IMG/VR virus record: IMGVR_UViG_3300025646_000204
Span: 1 to 31,248 of that record
Reading direction: 5' to 3' (one strand)
DNA length: 31,248 nucleotides
Source of the DNA: a virus
The position numbers and the translations under genes are program-made. Below are positions 5,191 through 30,261 of the stretch, one piece after another. Below the pieces are notes generated by a model, which worked only from the letters and a program-made list of their open reading frames with translations, did not search any database and had not been told where the DNA came from. Position 1 is the stretch's first letter; the number at the start of each line of letters is the position of its first letter.

Positions 5191-5195
5191 AAAAA

Positions 5196-5221
5196 ATAAC
5201 TCCATATTTCTATGGAGTTAC
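5196..5221 (-). terminator. GAAA-capped hairpin plus U-tract, covering a ribosome binding site
   Basis: On the minus strand GTAACTCCATA-GAAA-TATGGAGTTAT forms an 11-bp stem (one G-U). It is followed immediately by TTTTTT, the layout of an intrinsic terminator after the zinc-ribbon gene. The 3' arm contains the GGAG used by the radical SAM gene starting at 5190, so the same hairpin could hide that site in read-through mRNA. Confidence 0.75.
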
Positions 5222-7070: not shown

Positions 7071-8042
7071 TCAAAATAGATCGTCTGCAGTAATACCTTT
7101 GCCCTTTGCATACTCAACAGGACGCTTCTGGAAGAAGTCAGTCATATTGGCGCCAAGGAGTTCTTCATCAAACCAATAGGTCTGGTCAATATGATGTTGG
7201 TTATATTCAATGCCAGAGTTATCGAATCCAATCATCTCAAGAGAATCTTTCATTCTCTTGGCAATAAAACTTTTTAGAATATTAGCGCTCAATCCTGGAA
7301 TAGAATAATCGCCCATAATCCAATCAATTACTTTACCTTCTGCTTCCAAAGATTCAACACATTCTTGTTGAATACGAGTATTTAACTCTTCGTCAAAATA
7401 TTCTGGATATTCTTCTCTGAGAGTCTGGATTAGTTTAACGCCCACTTGAGCATGAAGCATTTCTTCATTACGAGTATATTGGACTTGTTGTGCACAATCT
7501 TTCAATACTGCTTTATTACGATTAAAGTGCATAATGATATAGAACTGACTAAAAAGAGATACGTTTTCTACAAAAAGAGTAAAGAGAATAATTGAGTAGA
7601 TGTATTGCTGCTTTGCGTCTTTATAAACTTTCTTATTATACTTACGAAGATAGTTTACACGACCTTTAATAACTTCTTCATTTAGATTTTCTTCAAATAC
7701 ATGGCTTAAATGGAGAACGTCAAGAAGCTTTTCATATGCTAGGTTATGGATAACCTCTGAATTAGCCATAGCAAACCCAAGGTCGCGGATTGAGGGATGA
7801 GGCATATGCCGACCGATGTCAGCCCAGAATGTTTTTACAGCTACTTCAATCTGACCAATTGCAGATAGAGTGCGAACAACCACCTCTTGTTCTTCTTGTG
7901 TTAGATCTGTTTTAAATTGTGAATAATCTGATCGAAAGTTAAATTCATCTGGTGTCCAAAATCCTTGCCAAATAGCATCTATGAATTTTTTTGTCCATGG
8001 ATAAAGATCTGGCTTTCTTGAAATTTGTTCTTCGAACAGCAT
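7071..8042 (-). CDS. nrdB: aerobic ribonucleotide reductase small subunit (class I)
   Basis: Supplies the radical needed by NrdA using a dinuclear metal site. The ligand pattern is present: SEVIHNLAY (Glu, His and the tyrosyl-radical position), FVENVSLF (Glu) and NEEMLHAQ (Glu and His). The first ligand, usually Asp in E. coli NrdB, appears to be Glu in QIEVAVKTFW, 30 residues before the second ligand. Length (323) is slightly below the E. coli protein. The ribosome binding site is AAGGGGAAG. An early promoter (8134-8163) followed by a leader hairpin with a U-tract precedes it. Confidence 0.95.
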   Translation of the reverse strand: MLFEEQISRKPDLYPWTKKFIDAIWQGFWTPDEFNFRSDYSQFKTDLTQEEQEVVVRTLSAIGQIEVAVKTFWADIGRHMPHPSIRDLGFAMANSEVIHNLAYEKLLDVLHLSHVFEENLNEEVIKGRVNYLRKYNKKVYKDAKQQYIYSIILFTLFVENVSLFSQFYIIMHFNRNKAVLKDCAQQVQYTRNEEMLHAQVGVKLIQTLREEYPEYFDEELNTRIQQECVESLEAEGKVIDWIMGDYSIPGLSANILKSFIAKRMKDSLEMIGFDNSGIEYNQHHIDQTYWFDEELLGANMTDFFQKRPVEYAKGKGITADDLF

Positions 8043-8046
8043 TTAT

Positions 8047-8096
8047 TCTTCCCCTTAAAAAATAAAAATAAGGCAAAATATACAATATGTTGCCTT
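8047..8096 (-). terminator. leader terminator or attenuator before nrdB
   Basis: On the minus strand AAGGCAA (8090-8096) pairs with TTGCCTT (8070-8076). An inner ATAT/ATAT stem with a TGT loop continues it past one mismatch, and ATTTTTATTTTTT follows. It lies between the early promoter and the nrdB start, about 40 nt after the expected transcription start, so it could terminate transcription in the nrdB leader. Confidence 0.7.
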
Positions 8097-8133
8097 TGTT
8101 TATTTAAAATTGTGTTGATATTGTTATTGGTAG

Positions 8134-8163
8134 ATTATATATCACGCTCGAGGCGTTGTAAAC
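8134..8163 (-). promoter_or_regulatory. early promoter for nrdB-nrdA
   Basis: GTTTAC (8158-8163) and a perfect TATAAT (8134-8139), separated by 18 nt. Same layout as the other early promoters in this window. Confidence 0.82.
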
Positions 8164-8191
8164 CAATTATTTTATGTATATTACAATAAAG

Positions 8192-8572
8192 TTAACCTGT
8201 AGGCTCTGCTGGAGTCTCTGTTGTAACTTGCTGTTCATAATATACAATAATCTCTTGTTGTTGTAAAATGTATCTTCTGAGTTCAGCAATACCTAAAGCT
8301 AAATTCTCATAACCTTTTGGTGTGATGGCAATAAAAACTACCTCACCTACATCACTCTGAATACGTGAAATAAACTCGTCAAGATTGTCAGCATTTACAA
8401 CATACCAATCTACATTTGGCATATCCACGGGAGAAGGTCTTTGTTGTACAGGTATGTTTCGTTCAATATATTCTGTTTGAACTACAACTTGAGGTTCTGG
8501 TAATAAACTAGAAACACTTGTACAACTACTGAGCGCTAGTAGCGCCGCTGGTATCACTATCCATTTGACCAC
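8192..8572 (-). CDS. putative outer-membrane spanin subunit (Rz1-like lipoprotein)
   Basis: The protein has a short hydrophobic signal ending in a lipobox (ALLALSSC), then a proline/glutamine-rich stretch (PEPQVV and PVQQRPSPVD), as expected of an outer-membrane spanin lipoprotein. A GTG at 8570-8572, preceded by TGGAGG at 6 nt, gives a 127-residue product beginning MVKWIVIPA. The longer frame from 8614 adds a charged segment before the signal and lacks a ribosome site. The start lies inside the 3' end of the inner-membrane spanin gene, an arrangement typical of Rz/Rz1 pairs. The C-terminal half is longer than in classic Rz1. Inferred from architecture, not sequence identity. Confidence 0.72.
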   Translation of the reverse strand: MVKWIVIPAALLALSSCTSVSSLLPEPQVVVQTEYIERNIPVQQRPSPVDMPNVDWYVVNADNLDEFISRIQSDVGEVVFIAITPKGYENLALGIAELRRYILQQQEIIVYYEQQVTTETPAEPTG

Positions 8573-8942
8573 CGGTTTCCTCCAATATTCTTTCTCTGAG
8601 TCTTTGGACTCCACGATTAATTCTTTCTTCCATATCTACAGGATCTGCCAGTGCTTCACGTGTGATATCAATCTGTGATAGACGAGTTCTTAAACTTCCA
8701 ACTCTTGCTTCAGCTTCTTGTAAACGAGATTGCAATTGTGATTGTAATTGTGCATTTCGTGTTGCATCTGCTACCATACGATCTATAGTCGCCTGGTTCG
8801 TTGCTACGGTCTGTTCCAACAATACATTGTTTTCCCTTAGGGTATTAACTTGTTGCTGAAGTTGCGTTACATATGTGTATCCACCATAACCTATTGCGGA
8901 CACAGTACCGATAATGAATAAAAGTAAATAGAGTCGGATCAT
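8526..8942 (-). CDS. putative inner-membrane spanin subunit (Rz-like)
   Basis: The 138-residue product has one N-terminal membrane helix (residues 3-23, LYLLLFIIGTVSAIGYGGY). A long Q/R-rich coiled coil follows (about 26-90), then a C-terminal RINRGVQRLRERI segment, the classic i-spanin layout. Spanins fuse inner and outer membranes in the last step of lysis. The last 47 nt overlap the lipoprotein start. Its own start overlaps the PP-loop gene stop by 4 nt (ATGA), so it is translationally coupled to the operon that begins at 10837. Confidence 0.78.
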   Translation of the reverse strand: MIRLYLLLFIIGTVSAIGYGGYTYVTQLQQQVNTLRENNVLLEQTVATNQATIDRMVADATRNAQLQSQLQSRLQEAEARVGSLRTRLSQIDITREALADPVDMEERINRGVQRLRERILEETGGQMDSDTSGATSAQ

Positions 8943-9616
8943 TTTATTCCTCCGTCATAGCAATTAAATGCCCAATATTTTTCCTTACACCACATACATT
9001 TTTTACAAGGATTTCCTTTTGCATCAGGAGTTACACAAGATTTGGTAAGAGGAAATAAATTATTCATTAAATCAAATTTTTTATATTGAAATGCTAAAAA
9101 TTTTTTATCAACATGTATAAAAAGGCTTCTTTTTTCTTGCATATCGTTTTCATTATAATTTCGTTCTTTTGTAATAGAACCAAGATTAATTTTATCAAAT
9201 AATGGGGCACTTGTCATTCCACTGATGGAAGTATCTATTAACCCTTTTTCTAATTTATCTACAATAGGTTTTATATATTTATTTTTTTTGATTATAATTG
9301 GTGAATCAAAATCTTTTTTATATTTTATGATATAAGGATCTAATATATTTATTTTAGGATAGCTATCGCGAATAAATTCTAGTATTTTTAAAAAATGAAA
9401 TTTTGTATTAAAAGGAAATCCTAAGTCAACCGCATGAACAGGTAACAATATATGACTATTATGTAAATTTAAATCGTCAATACATTTAGCTAGCCACCAT
9501 AATAAAAATGACGAATCAGTTCCTCCAGAACATATACAACCAATATTTTCATATTTTTTTAAAAAGGATTCAGTTTTATCTACCACTAAACCTCTATCAT
9601 CATATAATATTGTCAC
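8939..9616 (-). CDS. PP-loop ATPase, QueC-like (7-cyano-7-deazaguanine synthase-like)
   Basis: The 225-residue protein has an N-type ATP pyrophosphatase P-loop, SGGTDS (residues 30-35). Its C-terminal cysteine set, C194-x9-C204-x2-C207-x2-C210, matches the zinc site of QueC. QueC makes preQ0 from carboxydeazaguanine; in phages it can feed queuosine or deazaguanine DNA modification. No other pathway gene (FolE, QueD, QueE, a transglycosylase) is visible here, so the substrate is uncertain. It starts at GTG overlapping the upstream stop (GTGA). The gene is AT-rich, like the radical SAM genes, suggesting lateral origin. Fold call is solid, exact reaction is not. Confidence 0.8.
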   Translation of the reverse strand: MTILYDDRGLVVDKTESFLKKYENIGCICSGGTDSSFLLWWLAKCIDDLNLHNSHILLPVHAVDLGFPFNTKFHFLKILEFIRDSYPKINILDPYIIKYKKDFDSPIIIKKNKYIKPIVDKLEKGLIDTSISGMTSAPLFDKINLGSITKERNYNENDMQEKRSLFIHVDKKFLAFQYKKFDLMNNLFPLTKSCVTPDAKGNPCKKCMWCKEKYWAFNCYDGGIK

Positions 9617-9876
9617 GATGGATCTTCTATATACTTTCTAAAACGTTTTCTAAGTACTGGTGCACCACGTTTGGTTTCATCATATCTACGATCAACCATA
9701 ATAATTTCTTGAATCTTGGGATCTTTTCTACGGCGTAATAATCTTTTCGGCATCATGGTCGGAGGAAATGCTACACTTGCTGTGGTTGTATCCTCTGTTG
9801 TTTGTTCATCCAATTCATTACAAGGTTCACAAAATTCGGTAGCAAACTCAGCACAATCTTTGCATTTGTCTTTCAT
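9613..9876 (-). CDS. small protein with N-terminal CxxC pairs
   Basis: 87 residues starting MKDKCKDCAEFATEFCEPCNEL, so two CxxC pairs in the first 19 residues suggest a metal-binding knuckle. The rest is charged and basic (PKRLLRRRKDPK and KRGAPVLRKRF). The start overlaps the previous stop (ATGA) and the stop overlaps the PP-loop GTG, so it is coupled within the 10837-8192 operon. Not recognised as a named family. Confidence 0.75.
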   Translation of the reverse strand: MKDKCKDCAEFATEFCEPCNELDEQTTEDTTTASVAFPPTMMPKRLLRRRKDPKIQEIIMVDRRYDETKRGAPVLRKRFRKYIEDPS

Positions 9877-10472
9877 TTTAAAATTTCCTCGGCAGTAATA
9901 TAAATCTTTTGTCTTGTTGGCATATGAATAGCCTCATAGATATTTAGGCCAAATATTTCACCAATTGGATATGATTTATCTTCTACACGAATTTTATCAA
10001 AAGGTCTTACCATATCGTCAAAAGATCTATTTAAACACTTTGGATTTTTTACACGATAAATTCCAGGTGAAAGCCTTTGATCATTGAGTACAAACCACTG
10101 ATTATTTTCCATTAACATATCAGTAGGATCTATACCGGCTTCTGTCAAACCTTTTTTAATATCCTCTTCAGAGATTCCATATTCCTCTCTAATAAGATAC
10201 AGAGCTGATGCATAGCTTGCGATACGTGATGAACCACCTGGTGCATTTGATAGGAACCTTTTTACATTAAAAACAAGTCTGTGAAATGGTGTAAAATATT
10301 CCTGATATGCTTTACGATTATCCATCGTATTCAATTCAAAATCCTTACGGCGTTTACCTTCGGCATCAATAATACCTGCTTTAAAAGCATCGGTTTCATT
10401 AAAGGGGGTTACAAGAATTTTAAGGAAGCGAAACGTATAAAGTAGATCCGCTGCTGATTTAACAATACCCAT
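9873..10472 (-). CDS. conserved T4-like phage protein, possible virion component
   Basis: A 199-residue protein beginning MGIVKSAADLLYTFRFLKILVTPF, a pattern I recognise from many marine T4-like genomes. Typical features are the early WYxF-type helix, AFKAGIIDAEGKRRKD, and FHRLVFNVKRFL followed by GGSSRIASYASALYLI. No enzymatic motif is visible. Homologues are often annotated as structural or hypothetical; I cannot confirm either. It starts at TAATG overlap with the preceding gene. Confidence 0.75.
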   Translation of the reverse strand: MGIVKSAADLLYTFRFLKILVTPFNETDAFKAGIIDAEGKRRKDFELNTMDNRKAYQEYFTPFHRLVFNVKRFLSNAPGGSSRIASYASALYLIREEYGISEEDIKKGLTEAGIDPTDMLMENNQWFVLNDQRLSPGIYRVKNPKCLNRSFDDMVRPFDKIRVEDKSYPIGEIFGLNIYEAIHMPTRQKIYITAEEILK

Positions 10473-10837
10473 TAGATCTTCCTTAATGCCTCTACAACTA
10501 CCGGATCCATCGGAATCTTAGTATATTGATCATTACGAATATATTTTAAAAAGATTAAAAATGGCTTTAATATAGGCCAATGTGTTTTATTCATTTTCAA
10601 TTCAAGTATATTTAGTGATGCCTCAATACCAAATGCATTAAAGACAACAATTAAATGATTTAATATTAATCGCTCCGATAAATCACCTGTTTCTTCATAA
10701 CGATTAATAAGACGTTTTAAATACTTAAATCTTTTTAGATCGTCTTCGAATTCTTCCATATCAATGAACTTGGGGTTGTAGTAGTTTTTAGCTGCATACA
10801 ACACCAAGTTCTCTTCAGTTAATTCAAATTTGATCAT
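10472..10837 (-). CDS. conserved T4-like phage protein (DUF7207-like)
   Basis: A 121-residue protein starting MIKFELTEENLVLYAAKNYYNP, with the conserved FEDDLKRFKYLKRLINRYEETGDLSERLILNHLIV core seen in many T4-like phages; the DUF label is from memory. Almost entirely helical, no catalytic motif. It is the first gene of a translationally coupled operon ending with the spanins. No Shine-Dalgarno is visible before its ATG. A late-promoter-like TGTAAATA at 10844-10851 would make the mRNA nearly leaderless. Confidence 0.78.
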   Translation of the reverse strand: MIKFELTEENLVLYAAKNYYNPKFIDMEEFEDDLKRFKYLKRLINRYEETGDLSERLILNHLIVVFNAFGIEASLNILELKMNKTHWPILKPFLIFLKYIRNDQYTKIPMDPVVVEALRKI

Positions 10838-10873
10838 ATTAGGTATTTACAAGTCCAAAAAACATGGTATAAT

Positions 10874-10889
10874 AATATAGTACTATATT
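10874..10889. repeat. 16-bp perfect palindrome between genes
   Basis: AATATAGTACTATATT is its own reverse complement. It lies 13 nt past the stop of the large gene at 10902 and is followed on the minus strand by ATTATTATACCATGTTTTTT. It could be a weak terminator or a DNA-binding site. Confidence 0.5.
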
Positions 10890-10901
10890 GGGGAGGTAAT
10901 A

Positions 10902-12827
10902 TTACTTATCAACTCCAGCTTTTTTAGAAGCTCTACTCAAATGGGAATAACCTTTTTTAATATCCGGATATTCTTTAGAAAATTCTGATGCGGCTTTATT
11001 AACATCCTTTGAAACAGCTTGTGCAGTTTTTGCTGAACCGGTTGCTCTTTCAATACCTTTTTTTCTATTTGCAATACTTCTATCTAGATCTTTATCTTTA
11101 CTAGTTATAGCACTTGTATGACTAGTTCTATATTTTTGAGGTATATTTCTTGCTGTTTTTAGATTTGCTAAAGAGGGTGACTCTGGTTCATCCTTATCAC
11201 TACCAATTGCTTTTTTTAGATAATTTTTCTTTGCTTGTTGAGAAATTTCAGAAATTTCAGAATTTTGTTTTTCCAACATTTCTGCATATGCTTCTTTAAT
11301 TTTTCTTACAAAATTATCCATAATCTTTGATCCTACGTTTGATTGTGTTGATTTAATGATATTCTTATCACCAGTTTTTTGATCACCAGTACGATTCATA
11401 CCACCGCCCGGTTTGATTCCATCCGTAGCATGCTTTGCAGTATATTCTGCAGCTTTTTCTCCATCAATGCCTGAATCATTACCCTTCAATTCACCATGTG
11501 GTGCAAGGAAAGCTTTATCAGAAGCAGTTAATTTCGCATCCATGGTTTCTGGTGGTGTTGCGCCTTTGTAATGCATTGCGCGATCATTTGCTTCTTTAAT
11601 ACGTGCATATACCGGCCAAGTAGTAGTTTCAGTCTTAAAGCTTTCTTTTGTAGTTAAAAGATTATTGGTCATTTTAAGTGCATCATCTACTGATTCCATT
11701 GCCTGTTTAGTTGCAGTGGCATACATTACATCTTTCCAACGAGAACCGTATCTCTTTTCAAGATCTGCTTTATTCTTTTTCATACCCATTACAATGTCTT
11801 CACGCTTTTTCTTTTCAGCAGCAGTCATTTCTCTTTCGACAATAACTTCTTTTTGCACCTGAAGCTTTTCTCTCATTGACAAGTTTTCGACTTCCTCATT
11901 CATTTTTTTATAGGCACTGTATGCACCTTCGGTGTCTTTATGAAGGGCAGGAGTATCTGAATCGTTTCCTCCATGTTTTTTGGCCAGTGCTGCATGCTGA
12001 GCCGCTTGTTTTGAATGATATACTGCTTTTCTTAAGTGTTTTTCATTTCTAGTTTTTTCATATCTTGTAAGATGCTCATGAGCATCATGATGATGCTCTG
12101 AAGCTTTCTCGTGGTGTTCACCTGCAGGTGTGCCATGGTGTTCATCGGCTGCGGATGAATGATAATGTGCTGCGGCTTTATGGCCGAGATGGGCGTGAAA
12201 GCCATCACTGTTAGGCTTTTTAGGTCCATCAATAGCAGCGGAAACGAGATTGTGATGATGTGAAAAATGCATAGATTTTTGAAATACACTTGCACCCTTA
12301 CGCAATGTATCTGAGGCGGCAGGTTTTTCTTTTTTGCCTAAAATCTTTTTAACGCCAGATTTGACTTTATCCATCAAACCTTCATCAAGTTCAACTTCCT
12401 CTTTTACAGCACCTGGCTTCCACTTGTTAATGTGATCTCCCGTCTTTGGCATCTTACCACCAGTTTCCTTTGCAGTCACAGTGTACCTATTACCGTTATT
12501 AGTAACAATAGTCATTGTGCCTTTATCGGATGACATGGCATTAATATGATGAGGGTTTTTGCCCTTATATGACTTAGCCATTTTAGCACGATGAGCATCA
12601 GAATATGCTTCTTCAACTTCTTCTTTTTTCATAGCAGTCTTAACGGCTTTACGACGATTGTGTAGGTACTCGTCAGACTTATCAACATCGCCATCATTGT
12701 CGATGTCTTTATCTTTACGCTGAGCGTGAGTTCCCTTTAGCTCATCTGGATTAACTGGATCCATTTTTGCCTTTTCCTGCACCTGCATGTAAGCAGACGC
12801 AATATTTTTAATATCTTGAGTCTTCAT
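10902..12827 (-). CDS. large putative internal head protein, His-rich, with VELDE cleavage-type site
   Basis: The 641-residue protein is very hydrophilic and modular. Residues 41-55 (DIDNDGDVDKSDEYL) form an EF-hand/dockerin-like calcium loop. EEVELDEG at about 144-150 fits the (I/L)-x-E consensus of T4 prohead protease gp21. A His-rich stretch follows (about 180-270, many HH and HHH). AEKKKREDIVMGMKK with RYGSRWKDVMYATATK in the middle is a block shared with many marine phage virion proteins. The C-terminus is basic. The ribosome site is AAGGAGAG. Internal placement in the head is inferred from the cleavage-like site, composition and operon neighbours; no enzyme motif is seen. Confidence 0.72.
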   Translation of the reverse strand: MKTQDIKNIASAYMQVQEKAKMDPVNPDELKGTHAQRKDKDIDNDGDVDKSDEYLHNRRKAVKTAMKKEEVEEAYSDAHRAKMAKSYKGKNPHHINAMSSDKGTMTIVTNNGNRYTVTAKETGGKMPKTGDHINKWKPGAVKEEVELDEGLMDKVKSGVKKILGKKEKPAASDTLRKGASVFQKSMHFSHHHNLVSAAIDGPKKPNSDGFHAHLGHKAAAHYHSSAADEHHGTPAGEHHEKASEHHHDAHEHLTRYEKTRNEKHLRKAVYHSKQAAQHAALAKKHGGNDSDTPALHKDTEGAYSAYKKMNEEVENLSMREKLQVQKEVIVEREMTAAEKKKREDIVMGMKKNKADLEKRYGSRWKDVMYATATKQAMESVDDALKMTNNLLTTKESFKTETTTWPVYARIKEANDRAMHYKGATPPETMDAKLTASDKAFLAPHGELKGNDSGIDGEKAAEYTAKHATDGIKPGGGMNRTGDQKTGDKNIIKSTQSNVGSKIMDNFVRKIKEAYAEMLEKQNSEISEISQQAKKNYLKKAIGSDKDEPESPSLANLKTARNIPQKYRTSHTSAITSKDKDLDRSIANRKKGIERATGSAKTAQAVSKDVNKAASEFSKEYPDIKKGYSHLSRASKKAGVDK

Positions 12828-12837
12828 TTGTCTCTCC

Positions 12838-13119
12838 TTACATCCAGATATTTGCTGCTATTGCTGCTGATGCAGCTGCTATTGCAATCCAGAATAGTTT
12901 GTTAATTGTATTCACAGTATGTGCATTATCATTTACGACTTTTTCAATGGCATCCAATTTCTCAGAAAATCGATTCATTCTTTCATATTGTGCAGCATGC
13001 TTAGACTCTAATGCAATGAGCTTTTCTTCTGCTCTTGCCATTAGAATCATAGCATCTGATAATTTATCAATCTTTTCTTCAATACGATCAAGTCGTGAAC
13101 TAGTTGTGTCAGTAGCCAT
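12838..13119 (-). CDS. coiled-coil protein with C-terminal membrane anchor
   Basis: A 93-residue product starting MATDTTSSRLDRIEEKIDKL, with a helical coiled coil (about 8-70) and one C-terminal membrane segment (LFWIAIAAASAAIAANIWM). The ATG at 13117-13119 is preferred: a TATAAATA late promoter at 13133-13140 would start transcription near 13127, after the more upstream ATG at 13131. GGGAAG precedes it. Tail-anchored small proteins of this type are widespread in marine T4-like phages. Function unknown; a lysis or membrane role is possible. Confidence 0.75.
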   Translation of the reverse strand: MATDTTSSRLDRIEEKIDKLSDAMILMARAEEKLIALESKHAAQYERMNRFSEKLDAIEKVVNDNAHTVNTINKLFWIAIAAASAAIAANIWM

Positions 13120-13145: not shown

Positions 13146-13457
13146 TTACCACTTAACTTTATCTGCCCAATAGGCGGCAGACATCTTACCTTTTGCAATA
13201 TTTCTTGCATGACGTGCTTTAAATGATTTACGTCTTGCTCTTTCACGGTCTGACTCACCTTCTTTTGCAGGAGAGCCTGATACACCTTGCTGACCAAATC
13301 TAATAGTTTTAATTTTATCGCCTTCTTTGGCAACTACAATATGACTGCTCTTAGGATGGCTTGGTGTTCTTTTAGGTTTATTAAAACCTTCCACACCAGC
13401 TGCTTTAACACGAGGATCTTTTTCCTCTGCTAGCATATATTCTTTAAACTTAATCAT
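13146..13457 (-). CDS. small basic protein with capsid-targeting-like N-terminus (DUF5872-like)
   Basis: 103 residues. The N-terminus MIKFKEYMLAE ends in L-A-E, like T4 internal-protein capsid-targeting sequences cut by gp21. The body has the conserved block SHIVVAKEGDKIKTIRFGQQG and an ending ARHARNIAKGKMSAAYWADKVKW, a small family found in phages and other large DNA viruses (DUF5872 from memory). It is basic and lacks cysteines. It overlaps the upstream gene by 4 nt and is last of a coupled run from 18661. Function unknown; packaging in the head is inferred. Confidence 0.75.
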   Translation of the reverse strand: MIKFKEYMLAEEKDPRVKAAGVEGFNKPKRTPSHPKSSHIVVAKEGDKIKTIRFGQQGVSGSPAKEGESDRERARRKSFKARHARNIAKGKMSAAYWADKVKW

Positions 13458-14221
13458 TTGTTACCACGCATTTGTGCAAGAGAACGTTGAGTTGAAGTCA
13501 TGGTCTTTGTTGGAAGCTTTCGGCCGGTCTTTACAGATACACCCATACCTTTTGCATGTTCAGCATCCTTCTGACGTTGCATTTTAATGAAGTCACCCTT
13601 CAATTTAGGTGCAGCTTCATCAATATTTTCTTCAGTTTTTAAACCAACTTTCATACCACCATATTGTTTATTTGTAATACCTTTTGCAGTCATGCTTGGA
13701 CGGGATTTACCAAGTTGGTCTTTCTTTTTATCAGCATCAATTTCTGCTTGTGTAGGCTTTGTATATTTCTTTGTTTGGCGTTCTTTATCTAACATTCTTT
13801 GAATGGAACCAATATGGCCAGGACCATATAACTTAGCTTCTTTCATTTCTTTTTCATCATCTTCTTTGTCTTCGTCTTCATCATCTTCATAATCGCCAGC
13901 TAAAACAGCATGCATATCCTTGGCTTTTTCATGAAGGCCAGAAAGCTTATTCTGCATCCACTCAGGAAATTCTTTATTCTTATTTAAATATTCGGTAATC
14001 TCTTCACCAACGTACTTTAAGAACTTAGCCTGATCTAATGCCATAGATTTTTCATCCTGAGAAGCAGGCATATCATCTTCAGCTTGCTCAGTTTTAATAA
14101 TTTTACGAACAACTGGCACCATACGAATCTTTGGCTTACCATCTGGACCTATATAGGTTTCAGGTTTCTTATCGGCTGAATTAACTGAAGCAGCTTCTCT
14201 TAATTCAAAAAAGCTTTTCAT
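13454..14221 (-). CDS. putative internal head protein with acidic linker and IDE cleavage-type site
   Basis: 255 residues beginning MKSFFELREAAS, a capsid-targeting-like start with L-R-E at 7-9. There is an acidic tract at 110-124 (YEDDEDEDKEDDEKE), then a basic half. ENIDEAAP (199-205) is a second (I/L)-x-E site. The gene overlaps its neighbours by 1 and 4 nt. No catalytic motif was seen. Packaged internal protein is an inference from the N-terminus, cleavage-like sites and operon. Confidence 0.72.
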   Translation of the reverse strand: MKSFFELREAASVNSADKKPETYIGPDGKPKIRMVPVVRKIIKTEQAEDDMPASQDEKSMALDQAKFLKYVGEEITEYLNKNKEFPEWMQNKLSGLHEKAKDMHAVLAGDYEDDEDEDKEDDEKEMKEAKLYGPGHIGSIQRMLDKERQTKKYTKPTQAEIDADKKKDQLGKSRPSMTAKGITNKQYGGMKVGLKTEENIDEAAPKLKGDFIKMQRQKDAEHAKGMGVSVKTGRKLPTKTMTSTQRSLAQMRGNK

Positions 14222-14997
14222 TATTCATGATCCCCCTGGTCCTTACCGATTGCATGTTTAAGATGATCAAAAGTCGGATGATTTTTTTTATTATAATCCA
14301 AATGATTATGTGCAAAATCTCTAAGCTTTTCTTTATCACCAGTCAATCTAACTCTATAATAACCAGGTTGTGTTGAATGAAGAGCATGAGCTTTTATCCC
14401 AGCTTTTTTATAATGATCGCGGTTCTTGCTACCATCATCATGATACTCAGAACGCGCGTTCGGATGTGGCATATCATTAACCTCGAGCGACCCATGACCA
14501 GTTGGTAATTTTTTAGTTTCAGTTAATTCTTGTCTTATGTCCTTAAAACTTTTCATGTTAGTTTCCTTTATTCCGAACATTGCCTGATATTTTTTGGTAT
14601 GTGTTGAAGGTTTTGTTTCTGCTCTTGCATCCCCAGGCGCTGGTTCGTATGCTCTTGGATCTCTGTCAGATAACTTATCTGCCTTTCTCCAATGTGCTTT
14701 TCTTTTTGCAATGGTAGATTTACTTAAACCTTTGAAATAATTTTCACCTTCGGCCATAGTTTCTTCACTACGAAGATCTTTATCAGCACCGTGATAGGTA
14801 CCTTTACCTTTGGTCACATATGAATTAACTCTTGCTAAACCCCACTGAGCTGGTGTAGTACCAGGACGATGACCTGAATTCCAAGCAGCAACACCTCTAC
14901 GATATACCTTCATAAGAGTACCATATGGCATACCTGATGCTTCGGCTTTTTTACGAACCGCAGCATTTTCAGCTATAAAATCGTTAAACTTAATCAT
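14221..14997 (-). CDS. two-part putative internal head protein with internal start (DUF5824-like N-terminus)
   Basis: 258 residues that look like two proteins joined. Part one begins MIKFNDFIAEN, nearly the T4 capsid-targeting sequence with I-A-E at 8-10. It contains a module KKAEASGMPYGTLMKVYRRG and HRPGTTPAQWGLARVNSY, then a DPRAYEPAPGDARAETKPSTHTKK block common in marine phage virion proteins (DUF5824-like, from memory). At residue 148 a second N-terminus-like sequence begins, MKSFKDIRQELTET, whose ATG (14554-14556) has AAAGGA 8 nt upstream. Thus a shorter 111-residue product may also be made. It overlaps both neighbours by 1 nt. Confidence 0.75.
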   Translation of the reverse strand: MIKFNDFIAENAAVRKKAEASGMPYGTLMKVYRRGVAAWNSGHRPGTTPAQWGLARVNSYVTKGKGTYHGADKDLRSEETMAEGENYFKGLSKSTIAKRKAHWRKADKLSDRDPRAYEPAPGDARAETKPSTHTKKYQAMFGIKETNMKSFKDIRQELTETKKLPTGHGSLEVNDMPHPNARSEYHDDGSKNRDHYKKAGIKAHALHSTQPGYYRVRLTGDKEKLRDFAHNHLDYNKKNHPTFDHLKHAIGKDQGDHE

Positions 14998-16148
14998 TAC
15001 TTGGTTTCCTGATTCTGCTGTTTGGCTTTTAAAAGTCTTGCTCTATCCATAATTTGGTCATGTCTACGAGCAGCAATTTCTTTCTGTCTTTGTACACGAA
15101 GTTTTGCTGCATCAATAGGATCTTTTTGTTCTATATTTAGTGTTTTAGGATAACCCTTATCACCAGGTTTTAGCCTTGGTTTACCAGCTGCGCGTCTCTT
15201 ACGAATATTAGCCCAAAGACTTTCTTCCATCTCACCTGGAGTAGCTTTTTTCCATTTCTTGGTAGCTTCTGGTGTACCCCAGTCAGGCTTATCTTTGTAC
15301 ATAGACTTTTTATTATCTTGTTCAACTATTTTCTCAACAGCATCTAACCAATAACGAGAGCGTTTACCTTCGGATGATTCTACAATAACATAATTGGATC
15401 CAAGTACAACAATTGTACCTACCTCATCCGTCTTTTTAATAATAACACTTTCACCAAGATCAAATAACTGACCTTTTACAAATGATTCACGTGTTAATGA
15501 TATAGGATCTAATTGTACGTGATTCCTAAATGTCTTTTCTTCTTTAAGGCCCATACCTTTACGAACATCATTAAAAAGTCTACGTGCGTCTTTGGTATTC
15601 ATAGCAATTGGAAGACCTTGAGAGAATTTAATAAAGTCATTGGCTGAAGCATAACCGCGCTGTTTAGTTCCAGAAGCACCTTCAGCACCTTCAGCATCCG
15701 GGTCTCTTTCACCAGCAGAAATAATCTTTATACCATCTTTAAAGTTATAGAAACCGTGGCCGCCTTCTTTGCCATTATAATTATTTAAACGCAAGTCATA
15801 TTCATTAATACGGTCTGAACCAGCAACCATTATAACCTTACGATAACCTTCATTATATAAAGCAGTCAGCGCATCAAATGGTGTCCTAACTTTTTTATTA
15901 ATCATTACATTACGTGCATGTTTTGGAAACATCTTACGAACGCTTTTAATCTTATCAGAATATTGTAATGGATTCTTTTTAGGATCTTGTGATTGAGACA
16001 AGAATACTTTGTATGGATTACGTCCAGCTATAGACGCAAGTTTATCTAATAACTTACCATGACCAATTGTTGGAGGATTCATTCTACCAAAGGTAAAATA
16101 AACAACCCTTTCCTCTTCAATAAGGTAATTCTTAAACGAATTAATCAT
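14997..16148 (-). CDS. cytidylyltransferase-like nucleotidyltransferase with capsid-targeting-like start
   Basis: 383 residues. After an N-terminal MINSFKNYLIEEE (L-I-E at 9-11), the protein enters a nucleotidyltransferase domain. FTFGRMNPPTIGH (residues 18-30) matches the NMN/pantetheine adenylyltransferase signature GRFxPxHxGH, except the first His is Thr (TIGH). Further conserved strands are MINKKVRTPFDAL and KVIMVAGSDRINEY, and ASGTKQRGYASANDF corresponds to the ISxT-type loop. The C-terminal 120 residues are basic. It transfers nucleotidyl groups in the named families; the phage substrate (NMN, phosphopantetheine or other) is unknown. It overlaps the upstream gene by ATGA. Packaging is inferred from the N-terminus. 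Confidence 0.8.
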   Translation of the reverse strand: MINSFKNYLIEEERVVYFTFGRMNPPTIGHGKLLDKLASIAGRNPYKVFLSQSQDPKKNPLQYSDKIKSVRKMFPKHARNVMINKKVRTPFDALTALYNEGYRKVIMVAGSDRINEYDLRLNNYNGKEGGHGFYNFKDGIKIISAGERDPDAEGAEGASGTKQRGYASANDFIKFSQGLPIAMNTKDARRLFNDVRKGMGLKEEKTFRNHVQLDPISLTRESFVKGQLFDLGESVIIKKTDEVGTIVVLGSNYVIVESSEGKRSRYWLDAVEKIVEQDNKKSMYKDKPDWGTPEATKKWKKATPGEMEESLWANIRKRRAAGKPRLKPGDKGYPKTLNIEQKDPIDAAKLRVQRQKEIAARRHDQIMDRARLLKAKQQNQETK

Positions 16149-17431
16149 TTATCTTCTTTATCTGCTCTACGTTCTTTATCTAATTTTCTAACTTTAGGCA
16201 TAAGTTTTATTGCAAGGCGCTTAATACGACCTCTCATTTTCTCCATACGTTTTTCAATTTCTTGTTTACGCTGTGGAGGTACTTCATCTCTTGATAGACC
16301 TTTTGCAAGTCTACGGAAGATAGCATTTCTAGCTGCTTTTTCAGCACGTGTTTTAAGACGCTTAGGATCGGCTGCTCTTTTTAGAACTCTTTTACGGCTG
16401 ACCTCAATCTGACGCCGCTTGAGTTTCATCTTACGGCCACGAGCACGTCTTTGCTGAAGGTTCAATGCTTCATCAACTTCTTCTGTCTCTTCAACAATTT
16501 TGATACCAGCTTTCTTTCTCCAGTCTGAACCATACTTAGAACGAAGCATACTATGATCTGCTTTGAGTTTCATACCAGCTGCTAGACCCATAGGCTCATC
16601 ACGCTTCAATTGCTTATGCACATCATGGGCTAGTTTCTTATGTGTTGCAGTCATTGCTTCATCAAGTTCTACTTCTTCATTAAAATGCTTAGTAACTAAT
16701 TTCTTAGCATCTTCGTGAGAATTCAGTCTTTCATGTCTATGAATGTTTTTACTGCCTTTGGGTATACTATCAGTTTTATATTGAATTACGTGATAACCTT
16801 CTGGTCTCCCATTTCTTGGATGATGTTTGCCGATAGAACCAACAAACTTGTTCTTATGAAAAATATCAGTAACTTTGCTTCCGTCTTTAAAAGTTTTATC
16901 GTGAAACTTTAATTCTTCATCAAGCTCAACTTCTTCTTTTTTCATAAGACGATTGTATGATTGACCAGCTTTTTTCTCTGCTTTATTAGCTGCTTTGGTA
17001 TGAGCAAATGCCTTCATCATATCAGGTTCATCCACTGCTTTTTGGCGTAGATTTGAAGCCTGTGCCTGTCTTGCTTTTGCTACCTTATGTGCTAGAGCTT
17101 GTGATACTTCATCAAGCTCTGCTTCCTCACCAGTAAATTGGAAAACATGAACATGTCTTCCTTTTTTGGAACCTGGGTCTTTTATTGTTTTATGTTTACC
17201 AGTGTAACCCATGCCAACATTCTTAGCATGGGTTCCTAGTTCAATAGGATCTGTTGTTTTTTCACCAATGGTATCTATCTGATCTTCAGGTGAGTACCTG
17301 GAAGAATATTCTGCATTTGTACCAGCACCAGTATCACCTTTACGCTTCTTAGCGTTTTTCTTAATTAGATCAGGCATGCCTGGTGCATAGTCTACAGTAA
17401 GGAAATCTTTAAAGTCAAGTTTTTTAGCCAT
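16145..17431 (-). CDS. putative internal head polyprotein with three VELDE/AELDE sites and basic tail
   Basis: 428 residues of segments joined by near-identical linkers: GEEAELDE (101-108), KEEVELDE (165-172) and NEEVELDE (251-258), plus TEEVDE near 321. Each L-D-E fits the gp21 prohead-protease consensus (I/L)-x-E. Cutting there would give pieces of about 108, 64, 86, 63 and 107 residues. The last piece is extremely basic (QQRRARGRKMKLKRRQ onward) and resembles a DNA-binding protein family of marine phages. The middle piece (173-258) is compact with FKDGSKVTDIFHKNKFVGSIGKH. Its N-terminus MAKKLDFKDFLTVDY only partly resembles the capsid-targeting motif. Head-internal role inferred. Confidence 0.75.
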   Translation of the reverse strand: MAKKLDFKDFLTVDYAPGMPDLIKKNAKKRKGDTGAGTNAEYSSRYSPEDQIDTIGEKTTDPIELGTHAKNVGMGYTGKHKTIKDPGSKKGRHVHVFQFTGEEAELDEVSQALAHKVAKARQAQASNLRQKAVDEPDMMKAFAHTKAANKAEKKAGQSYNRLMKKEEVELDEELKFHDKTFKDGSKVTDIFHKNKFVGSIGKHHPRNGRPEGYHVIQYKTDSIPKGSKNIHRHERLNSHEDAKKLVTKHFNEEVELDEAMTATHKKLAHDVHKQLKRDEPMGLAAGMKLKADHSMLRSKYGSDWRKKAGIKIVEETEEVDEALNLQQRRARGRKMKLKRRQIEVSRKRVLKRAADPKRLKTRAEKAARNAIFRRLAKGLSRDEVPPQRKQEIEKRMEKMRGRIKRLAIKLMPKVRKLDKERRADKEDK

Positions 17432-18661
17432 TTATTTTCTTCCTGGTTTATCCCATCCCTTTAATATATCAGGTGAGAAATTGTTGTAGGAAAATTCCAT
17501 CCTATCAACAATTTTCACCGCATCACCACCGAGAGTATCAATAGCAACAAAGCCTTCAGCGCCGGTTACCTTGAATCCATTACGAGTTTTTACAAAAGTT
17601 TGTATACTTTGTAATTTATTTAAACTATTTATAAGTTTTAATTTAGCAAAAACTATCACTTTTTGTAAATCAAAAATACGTTTTAAGTTTATTTGATTCT
17701 CGTCGGAAAAGAAAGTTAAGATTTCGTCGAGCTTTTTTTGGCCGGCGGACTTGCCTTTCTCGGTTTTCTTGGCGTTGATTTCTTTTTGGTACTTGGCTTT
17801 GATCCACTTAATGAGGCCTGATACGTGTCTTCCTGTATCTCCAATGATTTCGCCTCGTCTAACAAAGGTGTTGTTGTAGGTTTCAATGAGCTGAGCGAGT
17901 TGTCCGTTTCGTTCCAGCTCTCTGAGTGTGGATCCTGCGATTTGGTTAAATAGTTTACCAGCCTGCGAAAGATATTCATTCACTTCCTCCGTTTCTTTTT
18001 TACTCATAGTTGCTTTGGTTAAATCCCTTAGCATAGCATCTTGTGACCATACATTTCGAGATTGTTTAAACATGCTTACATCAACTCCGTATGATGCACG
18101 CATGGATTCAAATGTATTACCTGTATATGTAGTGTGCCAGACAATACCGATTTTAGCAGATTTAATAGTTTTTGCTTCTTTTGAATTAGCAGGTACTGCA
18201 TATACAATTGTATTAGGATGAAAAGTTAAATACTTCTCACCTTTAATTATACTTGTAGATAAATCGCCTGGTCCGAAGAGAAAGTCTCCTTGAACCACAC
18301 CCTTGATTCCAAGCTCTGGCAAATACTCGAGGGCAGCTTTGAGCTTAGAAGCAAGATCACCAGAAGTATCAGCATCAATGTCAGCTGGAGATTTATAGAC
18401 TTTAGGATTTTTGTTGAATATGCCCTTCTTGGCAACAAAAAATTGACCATCACTCGGGTCAATACCAGCAAAAATAGCAGGAGCGCCATCCCATTTAACA
18501 GAGATACTTCCATCGTGCGATCCTTTTAACATATCTCTTAATTCACGTAAGGCATTTATTGCCTGGCGTGTTCCATTTACACCACCATAAAGGACTTTGT
18601 CCTCAATGTGAGTCATGTGGGTATTTTTTTCTTCGGTTATGTATGAGCTAAACTTTTCCAT
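17432..18661 (-). CDS. KxDG nucleotidyltransferase/ligase-like protein (DUF6267-like)
   Basis: 409 residues. The start MEKFSSYITEE has the capsid-targeting-like I-T-E (8-10). SVKWDGAPAIFAG (K56-W-D58-G59) matches motif I (KxDG) of covalent nucleotidyltransferases such as DNA/RNA ligases. Candidates for later motifs are GVVQGDFLFG (121-130, motif III), EGFVAI (369-374, motif IV) and AVKIVDR (381-387, motif V). The 180-360 region would be a helical insertion. The family, which I recall as DUF6267, is widespread in T4-like marine phages with no assigned function. The stop is directly followed by the polyprotein gene. Ligase activity is a motif-level inference. Confidence 0.8.
   Translation of the reverse strand: MEKFSSYITEEKNTHMTHIEDKVLYGGVNGTRQAINALRELRDMLKGSHDGSISVKWDGAPAIFAGIDPSDGQFFVAKKGIFNKNPKVYKSPADIDADTSGDLASKLKAALEYLPELGIKGVVQGDFLFGPGDLSTSIIKGEKYLTFHPNTIVYAVPANSKEAKTIKSAKIGIVWHTTYTGNTFESMRASYGVDVSMFKQSRNVWSQDAMLRDLTKATMSKKETEEVNEYLSQAGKLFNQIAGSTLRELERNGQLAQLIETYNNTFVRRGEIIGDTGRHVSGLIKWIKAKYQKEINAKKTEKGKSAGQKKLDEILTFFSDENQINLKRIFDLQKVIVFAKLKLINSLNKLQSIQTFVKTRNGFKVTGAEGFVAIDTLGGDAVKIVDRMEFSYNNFSPDILKGWDKPGRK
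17626..17633 (-). promoter_or_regulatory. intragenic late promoter candidate
   Basis: TATAAATAG on the minus strand inside the 3' part of the ligase-like gene, about 195 nt before the polyprotein gene starting at 17431. It could supply late expression of the head-protein operon, whose only other nearby promoter is early-type. Confidence 0.5.
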
Positions 18662-18667
18662 ACTAAC

Positions 18668-18697
18668 ATGATATCCTAATTCGAATCATTTGTAAAC
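18668..18697 (-). promoter_or_regulatory. early-type promoter before the ligase-like gene
   Basis: GTTTAC (18692-18697), 18-nt spacer, TATCAT (18668-18673). The -10 ends only 7 nt before the start codon, so transcription would begin at or near the ATG (leaderless) unless the true start lies downstream. Confidence 0.6.
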
Positions 18698-18702
18698 CTC
18701 TA

Positions 18703-20031
18703 TTAACGAGTTACCGTATCCCAATCTAGACCACCCCAGACACCATATCCATTAGTATCACTAGCAACTGCAAGAGTAAAAGTTTCAGCTGAATCTGTGA
18801 AAGTATTTCTTTGAAGCTGAAACTTGAATAAAGCATCTTTTAAAATATCAATGGTAGGAGACCCTTGATTTGAACTATTGAGAAATCCACCAGCCAATGT
18901 TCTTCCGATTTTATTTCCAGATCCGTCAGATTCATGGAAGTTTATTCCAGTTAAATTATATTCTACGGCAGCAGCACTATCCTCGGTAAGCCAAGTACCG
19001 CCTTCTACTCTACCGCCAGCAACCATTTTATAATGGTAATTGATACCATTACCATCACCTAAAATACTGGCCGCGCTTGGAAGAACTATTGCATCCAATT
19101 TATTGGATTTCAGTCTTATTGATACAACAGGATAATAATTACCAGCAGTAGCCATATCATATCTAGCCGTAATCGGCGTATGCACCTCTCTTTGGCGACC
19201 TGATAATTCATAACCGCCCTCAGAAATAACTGTAGTACATACCTCTTTATATGTACTCGGACCACTGGTGATACCGGTATTTGTAATTTCAGTTCTTATA
19301 GGAAGACTTGCTGTCGTAGAATATGTACCTTCAATTAAATTAGCATGATGAAATACATGACAAACAATAAATTGGCCATTAATAACAAATCCCATACGAA
19401 TAGAACCTACGCCCAGCCATTCAATATCACACCACATAATTTGAGATTTAGAAATATCTAGAGTAATACCAGATGGCCCGGTACCATTTAGATTATCTAC
19501 ATTCCACGAACCTTGGATAAGTCTGGTATCAACTGGTGCTCCAGATACAGAACTACGCTTCACGAGATAAGTATCAGTGCCGTCTACTTCTACAAAAAAT
19601 CCATTTTCTGTTCCAAAATATCCAGTTCTTTGTCTCAGATTTTCTTTTGGAGTAGCCATTGTAAAAGAGTTCATAACCAATAAAGATTTACCAGGTTGAT
19701 ATCCAAAAACCTTTACCGATTCTCTTAATACTTGATCACCATCGGCGCTTCCTATAACCAAATCAACTAGGCCTTGATTAGCATTATATGTTGCGCTTGC
19801 AGTTCCTGTAAGATCAGTATTAAAAAGACCATTATCACTAAATCGATGGTTGGAATCAAACAGCGTGAATGGTTCAGATACACGTAATCTACCAAATGCG
19901 TCTGATGAAGCATTCAGGTTACCTTTTGGTACATAAATTGATGGCCCGGCTTGTCCAGAGACCATTACAACTTCGTATGTGTCGTTATTATTATTAAGAA
20001 GTTTGTTACGGCTCGTACTAAATTGTGCCAT
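18703..20031 (-). CDS. virion structural protein
   Basis: 442 residues, beta-rich and low in lysine, with a virion-type composition (many T, S, N, G). Characteristic blocks are SSDAFGRLRVSEPFTLFDS (41-59), QRTGYFGTENGFFVEVDG and ILKDALFKFQLQRNTFTDSAETFTLAV, as in a family of marine phage structural proteins of unclear location (fibre or decoration). No transmembrane segments. A ribosome site AAGGA precedes the ATG. No late promoter lies directly upstream, so it probably depends on the promoter at 20791 via read-through. Confidence 0.78.
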   Translation of the reverse strand: MAQFSTSRNKLLNNNNDTYEVVMVSGQAGPSIYVPKGNLNASSDAFGRLRVSEPFTLFDSNHRFSDNGLFNTDLTGTASATYNANQGLVDLVIGSADGDQVLRESVKVFGYQPGKSLLVMNSFTMATPKENLRQRTGYFGTENGFFVEVDGTDTYLVKRSSVSGAPVDTRLIQGSWNVDNLNGTGPSGITLDISKSQIMWCDIEWLGVGSIRMGFVINGQFIVCHVFHHANLIEGTYSTTASLPIRTEITNTGITSGPSTYKEVCTTVISEGGYELSGRQREVHTPITARYDMATAGNYYPVVSIRLKSNKLDAIVLPSAASILGDGNGINYHYKMVAGGRVEGGTWLTEDSAAAVEYNLTGINFHESDGSGNKIGRTLAGGFLNSSNQGSPTIDILKDALFKFQLQRNTFTDSAETFTLAVASDTNGYGVWGGLDWDTVTR

Positions 20032-20052
20032 GAGTTAATATCCTTATTTTTT

Positions 20053-20073
20053 GAATGGAATATTTTTCCATTA
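20053..20073 (-). other. intergenic hairpin without U-tract
   Basis: AATGGAA and TTCCATT on the minus strand form a 7-bp stem just after the stop of the nuclease-like gene. An A-rich rather than U-rich sequence follows, so it probably stabilises or separates messages rather than terminating. Confidence 0.4.
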
Positions 20074-20760
20074 TCTCATACCATGCTTTTTACCTAATAA
20101 TTCTGCATGTTTATCAATATCAACTGACGAAGGTTTGTGATCCTTTAAAACAAATGTCACAAGCGATCCATATCCTTTTTTACCTGTCTTTTTATTAGTA
20201 CCACGATATTTCATTCTAGCACGAAATTGTGTTTTGCCATTTAGTTCAGGAACTCCTAAACGACCTTCATCGTTACCCATATGATGAAGACCTGATTTAC
20301 CAATTTGTATATATGGAGTTTTTCTATCTTTACCATAATGATCCTTGATGGGATCTGTATTAGGATGATCTTTATAAATATTGCCCATCTTCAGATCTGT
20401 ATCATAATCACCAGATGGTTTTTTCCATTTTTTATTTACATCTGGTAGAAAATGTCTTTCAATATGAGCCGCAGTTTTAGGATATTTATTTTTAGAACGA
20501 TCACCAATGTGCCAACCTTTTTCATCACTATATTTAAGTTCTAATTGTCCCATCATAGCACTTTTATCTTTTTTAATTTCAAGATTATGATGTTTACCGC
20601 CAGCATGAATGGTTCCGTCTGGAGCATCAGCTGATGAACCAGCACTTCTTACATTTTCAGGTTGTAGGCCGTATTGTTTAAGTTTGGCATTAACAACATC
20701 TTCATAATCAAAACCGCCTTTTGCGGCTTTTTCGGAAAGATATTTTCTAAAAGATAACAT
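20071..20760 (-). CDS. PD-(D/E)XK-like nuclease with capsid-targeting-like start
   Basis: The chosen ATG (20758-20760), with GGGGT 6 nt upstream, gives MLSFRKYLSEKAAKG, whose L-S-E (8-10) fits the capsid-targeting pattern. The body shows a PD-(D/E)XK arrangement: a helical Glu20 (FDYEDVVNAKL), AGSSADAPD (P47-D48), LEIKKD (E61-x-K63) and MMGQ (Q72). This is the active-site order of many Mg2+-dependent nucleases. The C-terminal half (HHMGNDEGRLGVPELNGKTQFRARMKY) is a second conserved part. About 229 residues. DNA cleavage is inferred from motif geometry only. A late promoter (20791) drives it. Confidence 0.75.
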   Translation of the reverse strand: MLSFRKYLSEKAAKGGFDYEDVVNAKLKQYGLQPENVRSAGSSADAPDGTIHAGGKHHNLEIKKDKSAMMGQLELKYSDEKGWHIGDRSKNKYPKTAAHIERHFLPDVNKKWKKPSGDYDTDLKMGNIYKDHPNTDPIKDHYGKDRKTPYIQIGKSGLHHMGNDEGRLGVPELNGKTQFRARMKYRGTNKKTGKKGYGSLVTFVLKDHKPSSVDIDKHAELLGKKHGMR

Positions 20761-20790: not shown

Positions 20791-20798
20791 TATTTATA
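20791..20798 (-). promoter_or_regulatory. T4-type late promoter
   Basis: TATAAATA on the minus strand 31 nt upstream of the nuclease-like gene, directly downstream of a strong terminator. Confidence 0.8.
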
Positions 20799-23832: not shown

Positions 23833-23909
23833 TGGTCTCGGTGGAGAGATTCGAACTCCCGACCCTCTGGTCCCAAACCAGATGCTCTACCAAGCTGAGC
23901 TACACCGAG
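23833..23909 (-). tRNA. tRNA-Pro (UGG)
   Basis: 77 nt with encoded CCA. Acceptor CTCGGTG/CACCGAG, A73, anticodon loop TTTGGGA, T-loop TTCGAAT. A late promoter lies 12 nt upstream. Confidence 0.95.
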
Positions 23910-29364: not shown

Positions 29365-29441
29365 TGGTGCTCCCACCAGGACTCGAACCTGGAACCTACC
29401 CGTTATGAGCGGGGAGCTCTGACCAATTGAGCTATAAGAGC
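29365..29441 (-). tRNA. tRNA-Met or tRNA-Ile2 (CAU)
   Basis: 77 nt with encoded CCA. Acceptor GCTCTTA/TGGGAGC (two G-U), anticodon loop CTCATAA, A73. The G1-C72 pair excludes initiator Met. Elongator Met or lysidine-type Ile cannot be told apart by sequence alone. Confidence 0.93.
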
Positions 29442-29442
29442 T

Positions 29443-29534
29443 TGGTAGGAGTGCAGGGATTCGAACCCCGTCGAGAACGCTAATCTGGCGCTGAAAGGCT
29501 TATAAGGCCTCCCTGTGTACCAACACCCACTCCC
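29443..29534 (-). tRNA. class-II-like tRNA with apparent UAU anticodon (unusual)
   Basis: 92 nt with encoded CCA, one nt from tRNA-CAU. Acceptor GGGAGTG/CACTCCT (first pair G-U), T-arm CGGGG-TTCGAAT-CCCTG. The anticodon stem GAGGC/GCCTT encloses loop CTTATAA, so the anticodon is UAU. A 24-nt variable arm follows, which is normal for Leu, Ser or Tyr but not Ile. The D-arm is short (about 3 bp, TTGGTA loop). Amino acid identity cannot be assigned confidently. Confidence 0.75.
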
Positions 29535-29535
29535 G

Positions 29536-29670
29536 TTATTTGTTTTTTAGATAATCAATACGTAGTTGAATCCATTTTTGAACTTCAGGAGGAACATTTT
29601 TATTTACTTTAATATAAGACAAATAAAGTTCTAGGCCTAGGAGTTCTGAGTATTCATTACTAGATTTCAT
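29536..29670 (-). CDS. small hypothetical protein in the tRNA cluster
   Basis: 44 residues, MKSSNEYSELLGLELYLSYI to YLKNK, with NKNVPPEVQKWIQLRIDYL like small phage helical proteins. A weak TAGAG precedes the ATG. The stop lies 1 nt before the class-II-like tRNA. Confidence 0.6.
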   Translation of the reverse strand: MKSSNEYSELLGLELYLSYIKVNKNVPPEVQKWIQLRIDYLKNK

Positions 29671-29685
29671 TGTACACTCTAAAAT

Positions 29686-29768: not shown

Positions 29769-29774
29769 GTTCGA

Positions 29775-30253: not shown

Positions 30254-30261
30254 AATATTAA

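Follow-up and report, generated by a model that had tools for sequence, protein, structure and literature searches.

Unrelated genes of a T4-like marine phage share a capsid-targeting-like leader and very probably encode internal head proteins

In phage T4, the first ten residues of internal protein III (IPIII) suffice for packaging, with residues 4 and 7 directing targeting and residues 8 and 10 directing processing (PMC9026906). Head-packaged effectors are also found in phages P1 (the Dar proteins, PMC9024508) and SPN3US (the ejection proteins, PMC5694885), both of which have a prohead protease. Here we describe a 31,248-base viral contig from IMG/VR (the window), in which a block of minus-strand genes carries a ten-residue leader that resembles the capsid-targeting sequence (CTS) of the T4 internal proteins (IPs). 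P1 DarB likewise has an N-terminal head-targeting signal, which was mapped by truncation (PMC9024508), whereas SPN3US propeptides are mostly long (124-127 residues; PMC5694885), unlike the tag considered here.

The window leaders share with those of T4 IPII and IPIII a length of ten residues, aromatic residues at positions 4 and 7, I or L at position 8 and Glu at position 10; in both systems unrelated bodies stand behind one tag, mature proteins are basic and a gp21-family protease is present (here, in relatives). Unlike the T4 IPs, the window cargo includes nuclease-like, KxDG, nucleotidyltransferase-like and multi-module proteins, and it is encoded in one gene block, in contrast to the small IP genes of T4; we saw no resemblance between these bodies and the T4 IPs. 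T4 Alt, an ADP-ribosyltransferase that is packaged and injected, is a comparable head-packaged enzyme, although the window leaders are of the longer IP type and no ADP-ribosyltransferase was found in the window.

The gene content marks the window as part of a T4-like marine phage genome: PhoH, ribonucleotide reductase, a T4-type single-strand binding protein, endolysin and ten tRNAs (genes at 29365-31199 and 23833-23909, nine of them clustered at the window end). The fragment does not include the gp20-gp23 head-gene cluster. Among annotated genomes, that of phage C48C1 (Kyanoviridae, 156 kb) comes closest, the two DUF6267 proteins being 68% identical; Methylophilales phage Melnitz, Pelagibacter phage HTVC008M and cyanophages are further off, and an INPHARED nucleotide search with the window gave no match.

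A T4-type leader on unrelated genes

All four positions that function in T4 (F/Y at 4, an aromatic residue at 7, I/L at 8 and E at 10) are matched exactly by the window leaders MEKFSSYITE, MIKFNDFIAE and MLSFRKYLSE, and by MINSFKNYLIE with a shift of one. The corresponding strict pattern, M.{1,4}F..[YFIL][ILMV].E, was derived from the window and applied elsewhere unchanged or slightly varied. It matches four of the 55 window open reading frames (ORFs), with leaders at 18661, 14997, 20760 and 16148 on the minus strand, which encode a DUF6267 protein, a DUF5824 protein, a PD-(D/E)XK-like nuclease and a cytidylyltransferase-like protein, respectively. When residues 2-17 were shuffled in 1,243 related genes, a slightly wider pattern matched 4.6 times on average against 201 observed; scaled to the 55 window ORFs, this rate predicts about 0.2 matches. 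As a control, a 48-kb piece of T4 with 69 ORFs was scanned, in which the pattern flags only ipII and ipIII. In C48C1 the strict pattern occurs on 6 of 207 ORFs, five of them inside the orthologous gene block.

An earlier note on this DNA had listed seven segments, six annotated N-termini and one internal, with a shared motif resembling the T4 internal-protein signal. All seven are present on the minus strand and the likeness to T4 holds; the motif itself is strict in four, while MIKFKEYMLAE (13457) has one residue too many (its orthologues MIKFKEFLEE and MIKFRDFINE fit exactly) and two segments match only loosely. A degenerate leader that the note overlooked, MAKKLDFKDFLTVD, begins the protein encoded at 16145-17431, whose C48C1 orthologue has an intact MLSFKQFVSE.

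To follow the motif in relatives, 241 IMG/VR loci around DUF6267 and the nuclease were gathered, which fall into window-like, Melnitz-like and HTVC-like lineages and hold 2,827 called genes. The motif is found on 329 of these genes, compared with 11.6 expected after shuffling; because homologues are not independent, such counts express strength of conservation and not a clean probability. The tagged families share no similarity in BLAST clustering, which bears out the claim of the earlier note that unrelated bodies stand behind one motif; many further families in these loci have no tag. Tagged families are also more basic than untagged ones (median +6.8 versus +0.3 per 100 residues, p = 0.0003), as the T4 IPs are.

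The motif keeps its position among homologues. [ILMV]xE stands directly ahead of the body in 119/119 distinct DUF6267 leaders across three lineages, with varying residues in between, and the motif is present in 73 of the 75 window-like members of the cytidylyltransferase family. At F4, position 8 and E10 the codons differ by synonymous changes, whereas at positions 5, 6 and 9 the residues themselves vary; selection at the protein level is therefore the likely cause of the conserved leader. In the HTVC-like lineage (L177-L256), DUF6267 leaders are shortened to MELLNE, MLLVE or MYNDLLVE and keep the cleavage half; these are close to the T4 Alt leader MELITE.

The tag can also be absent as a unit. 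An untagged cyanophage DUF6267 begins MAKNTHLEHLED, which places the end of the tag in the window protein (MEKFSSYITE-EKNTHMTHIED) exactly at the body boundary, and in several cyanophages DUF6267 starts where the window tag ends; in S-RIM2 and Syn9 the cytidylyltransferase is tagged. That tagged and untagged forms differ exactly at this boundary indicates that the tag behaves as a module gained or lost. Many cyanophages have the cytidylyltransferase next to DUF6267, and the neighbouring DUF6267 genes checked there are untagged. What lies upstream of DUF6267 varies: genes of 25 families, several of them tagged, occupy this slot, and some loci have no upstream gene. In one locus (L162 5046-5492) the slot gene is a possible ADP-ribosyltransferase (ART-PolyVal, below the Pfam cut-off) that recalls T4 Alt; its leader, MKTLKQLYEA, is not a strict CTS.

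Head protease and virion proteomes of relatives

A gp21 homologue, predicted by the earlier note to lie elsewhere in the genome, was found in relatives: Peptidase_S77 (PF03420) is present in C48C1 (E 1.9e-39) and in six of seven long related contigs. The T4 capsid protein gp23 is cleaved after Glu65. When marine major capsid proteins were aligned to gp23, [FIL]LxE was found at the Glu65 position in six of seven and LQE in the seventh; since LxE is kept here, the specificity of the marine prohead protease is probably the same as that of T4. Between the portal and gp21 genes of C48C1, an in-frame extension of CDS0012 (L001 14434-14631) reads MRTFKELREAKDKTVFKKK, a start that resembles a CTS and lies in the place held by gene 68 in T4.

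Published virion proteomes of cyanophages, as far as their accessible parts extend, provide a test outside the window. In S-CREM2, the strict pattern occurs on 3 of 241 ORFs, all of which were detected in the virion (Fisher p = 0.0085; PMC10665884): a SAM hydrolase (MKDFDSFLEE), an APH-like kinase ([M]KRFDAFLTE) and a cytidylyltransferase (MKNFSSFLTE). The near matches ORF13 (MKDLHSFLTE) and ORF136 (MQTFSMFFSE) were also detected, as was ORF12, which has LRFASFMAE 16 residues in; its Cas9 annotation has no supporting Pfam family. The genes for the SAM hydrolase, the kinase, ORF13 and ORF12 lie within L014, where they occupy 3837-5081, 7704-10313, 10310-10546 and 10579-12846 as a set. A tagged cytidylyltransferase was detected in S-SZBM1 (PMC9146016), and combining this phage with S-CREM2, as two independent and small tests, gives p = 0.0073. 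The S-SCSM1 NMNAT begins MKSFLQFLKE and is virion-detected as well (PMC9602691), so cyanophage virions contain CTS-bearing members of the same family as the window protein. The untagged DUF6267 of S-SZBM1 is missing from the proteins listed as detected for that phage. The authors of these studies report virion presence without a targeting mechanism (PMC9602691, PMC9146016, PMC10665884); our literature search for a CTS in cyanophages turned up only the T4 review, which is no proof that none exists.

From these results, targeting and packaging through a T4-type CTS are highly probable, and the view that the window genes code for proteins held inside the head of a T4-like marine phage is, as the best explanation of the whole, very probable. 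Cleavage by gp21 after the CTS Glu is almost as probable. In the proposed mechanism, the aromatic residues 4 and 7 of the leader would attach to the scaffold core of the prohead, and a gp21-type prohead protease would cut at [IL]8-x-E10 during head maturation; this cut would free the mature protein in the head, beside the DNA. The cargo would comprise the nuclease-like, KxDG (DUF6267) and cytidylyltransferase/NMNAT-like proteins and basic modules, including module strings with E(V)ELDE-type linkers that may be cut by the same protease, and it would probably enter the host with the DNA and act before phage gene expression. For the window phage itself, packaging, the cut, injection and each biochemical activity are what we infer.

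Several observations weigh against this proposal. A gp21 search of the 31-kb window fragment found none, and two window segments match the motif poorly: MKSFFELRE at 14221 and, inside a protein, MKSFKDIRQELTE at 14556. Among homologues, the HTVC008M cytidylyltransferase begins MKTLKELLRKK, without [IL]xE, and HTVC008M-type DUF6267 has lost the aromatic half of its leader (MELLNE). The earlier note had named homologues lacking the motif as evidence against its claim, and from cyanophage DUF6267 the tag is cleanly absent. In the family of the 16145-17431 protein, the targeting half F..F[LMI] is mostly kept and VD replaces xE, leaving no Glu; in T4, Asp at residue 10 stops cutting and not targeting, so this family may be packaged uncut. 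Detection in the virion, expected of every CTS homologue, did not hold in S-SZBM1, where one of three strict hits was detected (MKSFKSFLSE and MKTFKQYITE were not) and a further tag-like protein, SSZBM1_192, also went undetected. The two proteome tests are small, and the locus statistics are inflated by homology. Lastly, the virion data come from other phages, none with a tagged DUF6267. Mass spectrometry supports the earlier note in that tagged cytidylyltransferases are present in the virions of S-SZBM1, S-CREM2 and S-SCSM1, together with other tagged enzymes in S-CREM2, although the peptides beginning directly after Glu that it had also expected do not appear in the accessible data.

Cargo proteins and acidic linkers

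The DUF6267 protein is encoded at 17432..18661 (PF19782, E 1.4e-103; CTS at 18632..18661); this and all further window features are on the minus strand. K56-W57-D58-G59 and E10 are invariant across 27 homologues, and the former agrees with a KxDG nucleotidyltransferase/ligase motif I. Pfam gives DUF6267 only, no PDB sequence or Foldseek match was obtained, a fold search of the moderate model (pLDDT 72) against the PDB returned nothing with E <= 0.001, and a profile comparison with T4 rnlB gave no match. The KxDG part of the earlier label is thus borne out by the invariant KWDG, and ‘ligase’ stays a guess from that motif.

The cytidylyltransferase/NMNAT-like protein (14997..16148; phrog_3041, E 2.9e-61) has its CTS at 16116..16148. 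The earlier cytidylyltransferase-like label agrees with the Pfam family CTP_transf_like (PF01467), which barely passes its cut-off (21.9 versus 21 bits). In C48C1, the orthologous CDS89 (L002 13448-14857) is annotated 66 bases short (63514 instead of the in-frame start at 63448); the upstream start gives MIKNFSQYLLE, a tag lost through mis-annotation. The adjoining gene (14221..14997) encodes a two-module protein with DUF5824 (PF19141, E 1.9e-17) behind a CTS at 14968..14997, which is matched in 28 of 37 homologues, and a second module after the leader-like MKSFKDIRQELTE (14518..14556), which could serve either as an internal start or as a linker for cleavage. The protein with the loose leader MKSFFELRE (13454..14221) has a second module after EENIDE, and tblastn found no phage homologue of it. 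It is followed by a small basic protein (net +14; 13146..13457; phrog_7595, E 3.3e-41) with the leader MIKFKEYMLAE; three of five members of this family are strictly tagged.

The nuclease-like protein (20071..20760; CTS at 20731..20760) starts at the ATG at 20760, four codons inside the listed ORF, which begins at 20772. Its homologues begin MKSFYEHLTE, MDSFKGYISE and MLKFKSFLEE, and a pattern scan found one identical contig and few relatives. E18, D46 and E59-x-K61 are invariant in seven homologues with 23-58% identity to the window protein, which is the PD-(D/E)XK set and supports the earlier nuclease-like label. A family search gave nothing beyond a PHROG of unknown function (phrog_26930, E 7.6e-42), the best PDB hit is weak (a Holliday junction resolvase, E 0.06) and the AlphaFold model (pLDDT 45) is too poor for a fold search. 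Approximately 19 nucleotides upstream of the first in-frame ATG (20772) lies TATAAATA, a T4-type late-promoter-like box (20791..20798). With one mismatch, such boxes number 105 against 93 expected in this AT-rich window and are not over-represented, so for this exact box we record the position only. In relatives, tagged genes match type II restriction enzymes in PADLOC (REase_II, E 9.5e-11 and 6.2e-14; L076 8995-9975 and L041 452-1426); in L041 this gene immediately precedes DUF6267.

Two further proteins are built from several modules. The strongly basic product of 16145..17431 (net +38), a possible polyprotein, contains the linkers EEAELDE (17108..17128) and EEVELDE (16916..16936 and 16658..16678), all candidate protease sites, and ETEEVDE (16469..16489) ahead of a C-terminal helical module; in C48C1 this last module is a separate gene beginning MLSFKQFVSE, and in Melnitz it has a CTS-like leader. 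A large basic protein (10902..12827) with the motif DIDNDGDVDKSDE, EEVELDE-type linkers (one at 12381..12401) and no clear CTS is a candidate core or cargo polyprotein, and one of its modules is shared by C48C1 CDS98 and Melnitz. DxDNDGDVD, a motif of this protein that resembles an EF-hand-type calcium loop, is conserved in other candidate head/core proteins (L011 20560-21126 and L012 18520-19275).

The linker pattern fits a polyprotein that may be cut by the head protease. The alternative, that these linkers are plain acidic hinges left uncut and that only the N-terminal leader is processed, has in our estimate slightly less than an even chance. The residue three before the boundary (P3) varies among homologues (V, T, L or I), often outside the strict T4 [IL]xE, so cutting at the linkers is put forward only as a hypothesis, and several boundaries have no such site; nor is there a clear rise in plain [IL]xE density within the cargo proteins. 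The EVELDE-type signature, in contrast, is raised in both proteins, with 7 occurrences (overlaps counted) against 0.1 expected in 16145-17431 and 5 against 0.2 in 10902-12827. Elsewhere, moreover, the same modules occur as separate genes with a CTS of their own, and a Glu frequently marks the junction whichever way they are arranged: DUF5824 is a separate CTS gene in most relatives and is embedded in a larger protein in HTVC008M (after IEIDE) and in Melnitz (after FQLDE), which argues against simple hinges.

Elsewhere in the window, a small protein (3834-4244) that looks by eye like a GIY-YIG endonuclease lies between two radical-SAM-like proteins (2854-5205). Small overlapping genes occupy 8192-8942; of these, 8192-8614 matches an Rz-like spanin (phrog_812), and 8526-8942 appears by eye to be its partner, the other spanin half.

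Injection, assembly and possible roles of the cargo

The earlier note had suggested a toolkit of enzymes that is packaged together and perhaps injected. Conservation of the leader, gp21 in relatives and homologues in virions support the packaged toolkit; injection with the DNA, by analogy with T4 IPI and Alt, is somewhat favoured. A different role is conceivable in which the CTS does target the prohead core and the cargo works in assembly, as scaffold-like or DNA-condensing proteins instead of an injected effector kit. T4 IPIII influences head morphogenesis, the cargo is strongly basic in the way of DNA-binding head proteins, and an enzymatic signature is missing from several modules. Some tagged families, however, are clear enzymes that head building is not expected to need, namely type II restriction enzyme homologues, a SAM lyase (E 2.3e-19) and cytidylyltransferases, and the tagged gene set differs between phages, unlike assembly factors; we regard an assembly role as possible but doubtful. 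It is very improbable that the common N-terminus arose by convergence as an amphipathic leader with no part in head targeting (a peptide for docking to some other intracellular complex, or a translation-start bias): the motif is short, AT-rich start regions favour F, I and K and the support in this lineage comes from sequence and not from a direct assay, but the shuffle and T4 controls, codon variation at the constrained residues, the many untagged families in the same AT-rich loci and the virion detection of unrelated tagged enzymes, including cytidylyltransferases of other phages, all argue against it.

With the cargo read as internal head proteins that may be injected, its purpose could be anti-restriction, host takeover or DNA repair, and we leave this choice undecided. 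A more speculative and tentative picture is that abundant marine T4-like phages load the head, beside the genome, with a swappable kit of enzymes that cut DNA, possibly join it, and transfer nucleotides, all behind one tag and made partly as polyproteins diced by the protease into working modules. In this picture, since some tagged genes of relatives are homologous to type II restriction enzymes, the nuclease may turn on the DNA of the host or of a competitor upon entry, with the phage's own genome protected.

T4 provides the precedent for this kind of system. New here are how large and how enzymatic the cargo is, its construction from modules and its distribution among marine phages. The natural pairs of tagged and untagged DUF6267 allow a direct test, and the leaders are candidate packaging tags for marine phages. 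The tag also flags candidate anti-restriction and nuclease cargo and offers an explanation for the recurring NMNAT/cytidylyltransferases in cyanophage virion proteomes. A tag that predicts head cargo would turn many ocean-phage genes now called ‘hypothetical’ or ‘auxiliary metabolic’ into testable injected effectors.

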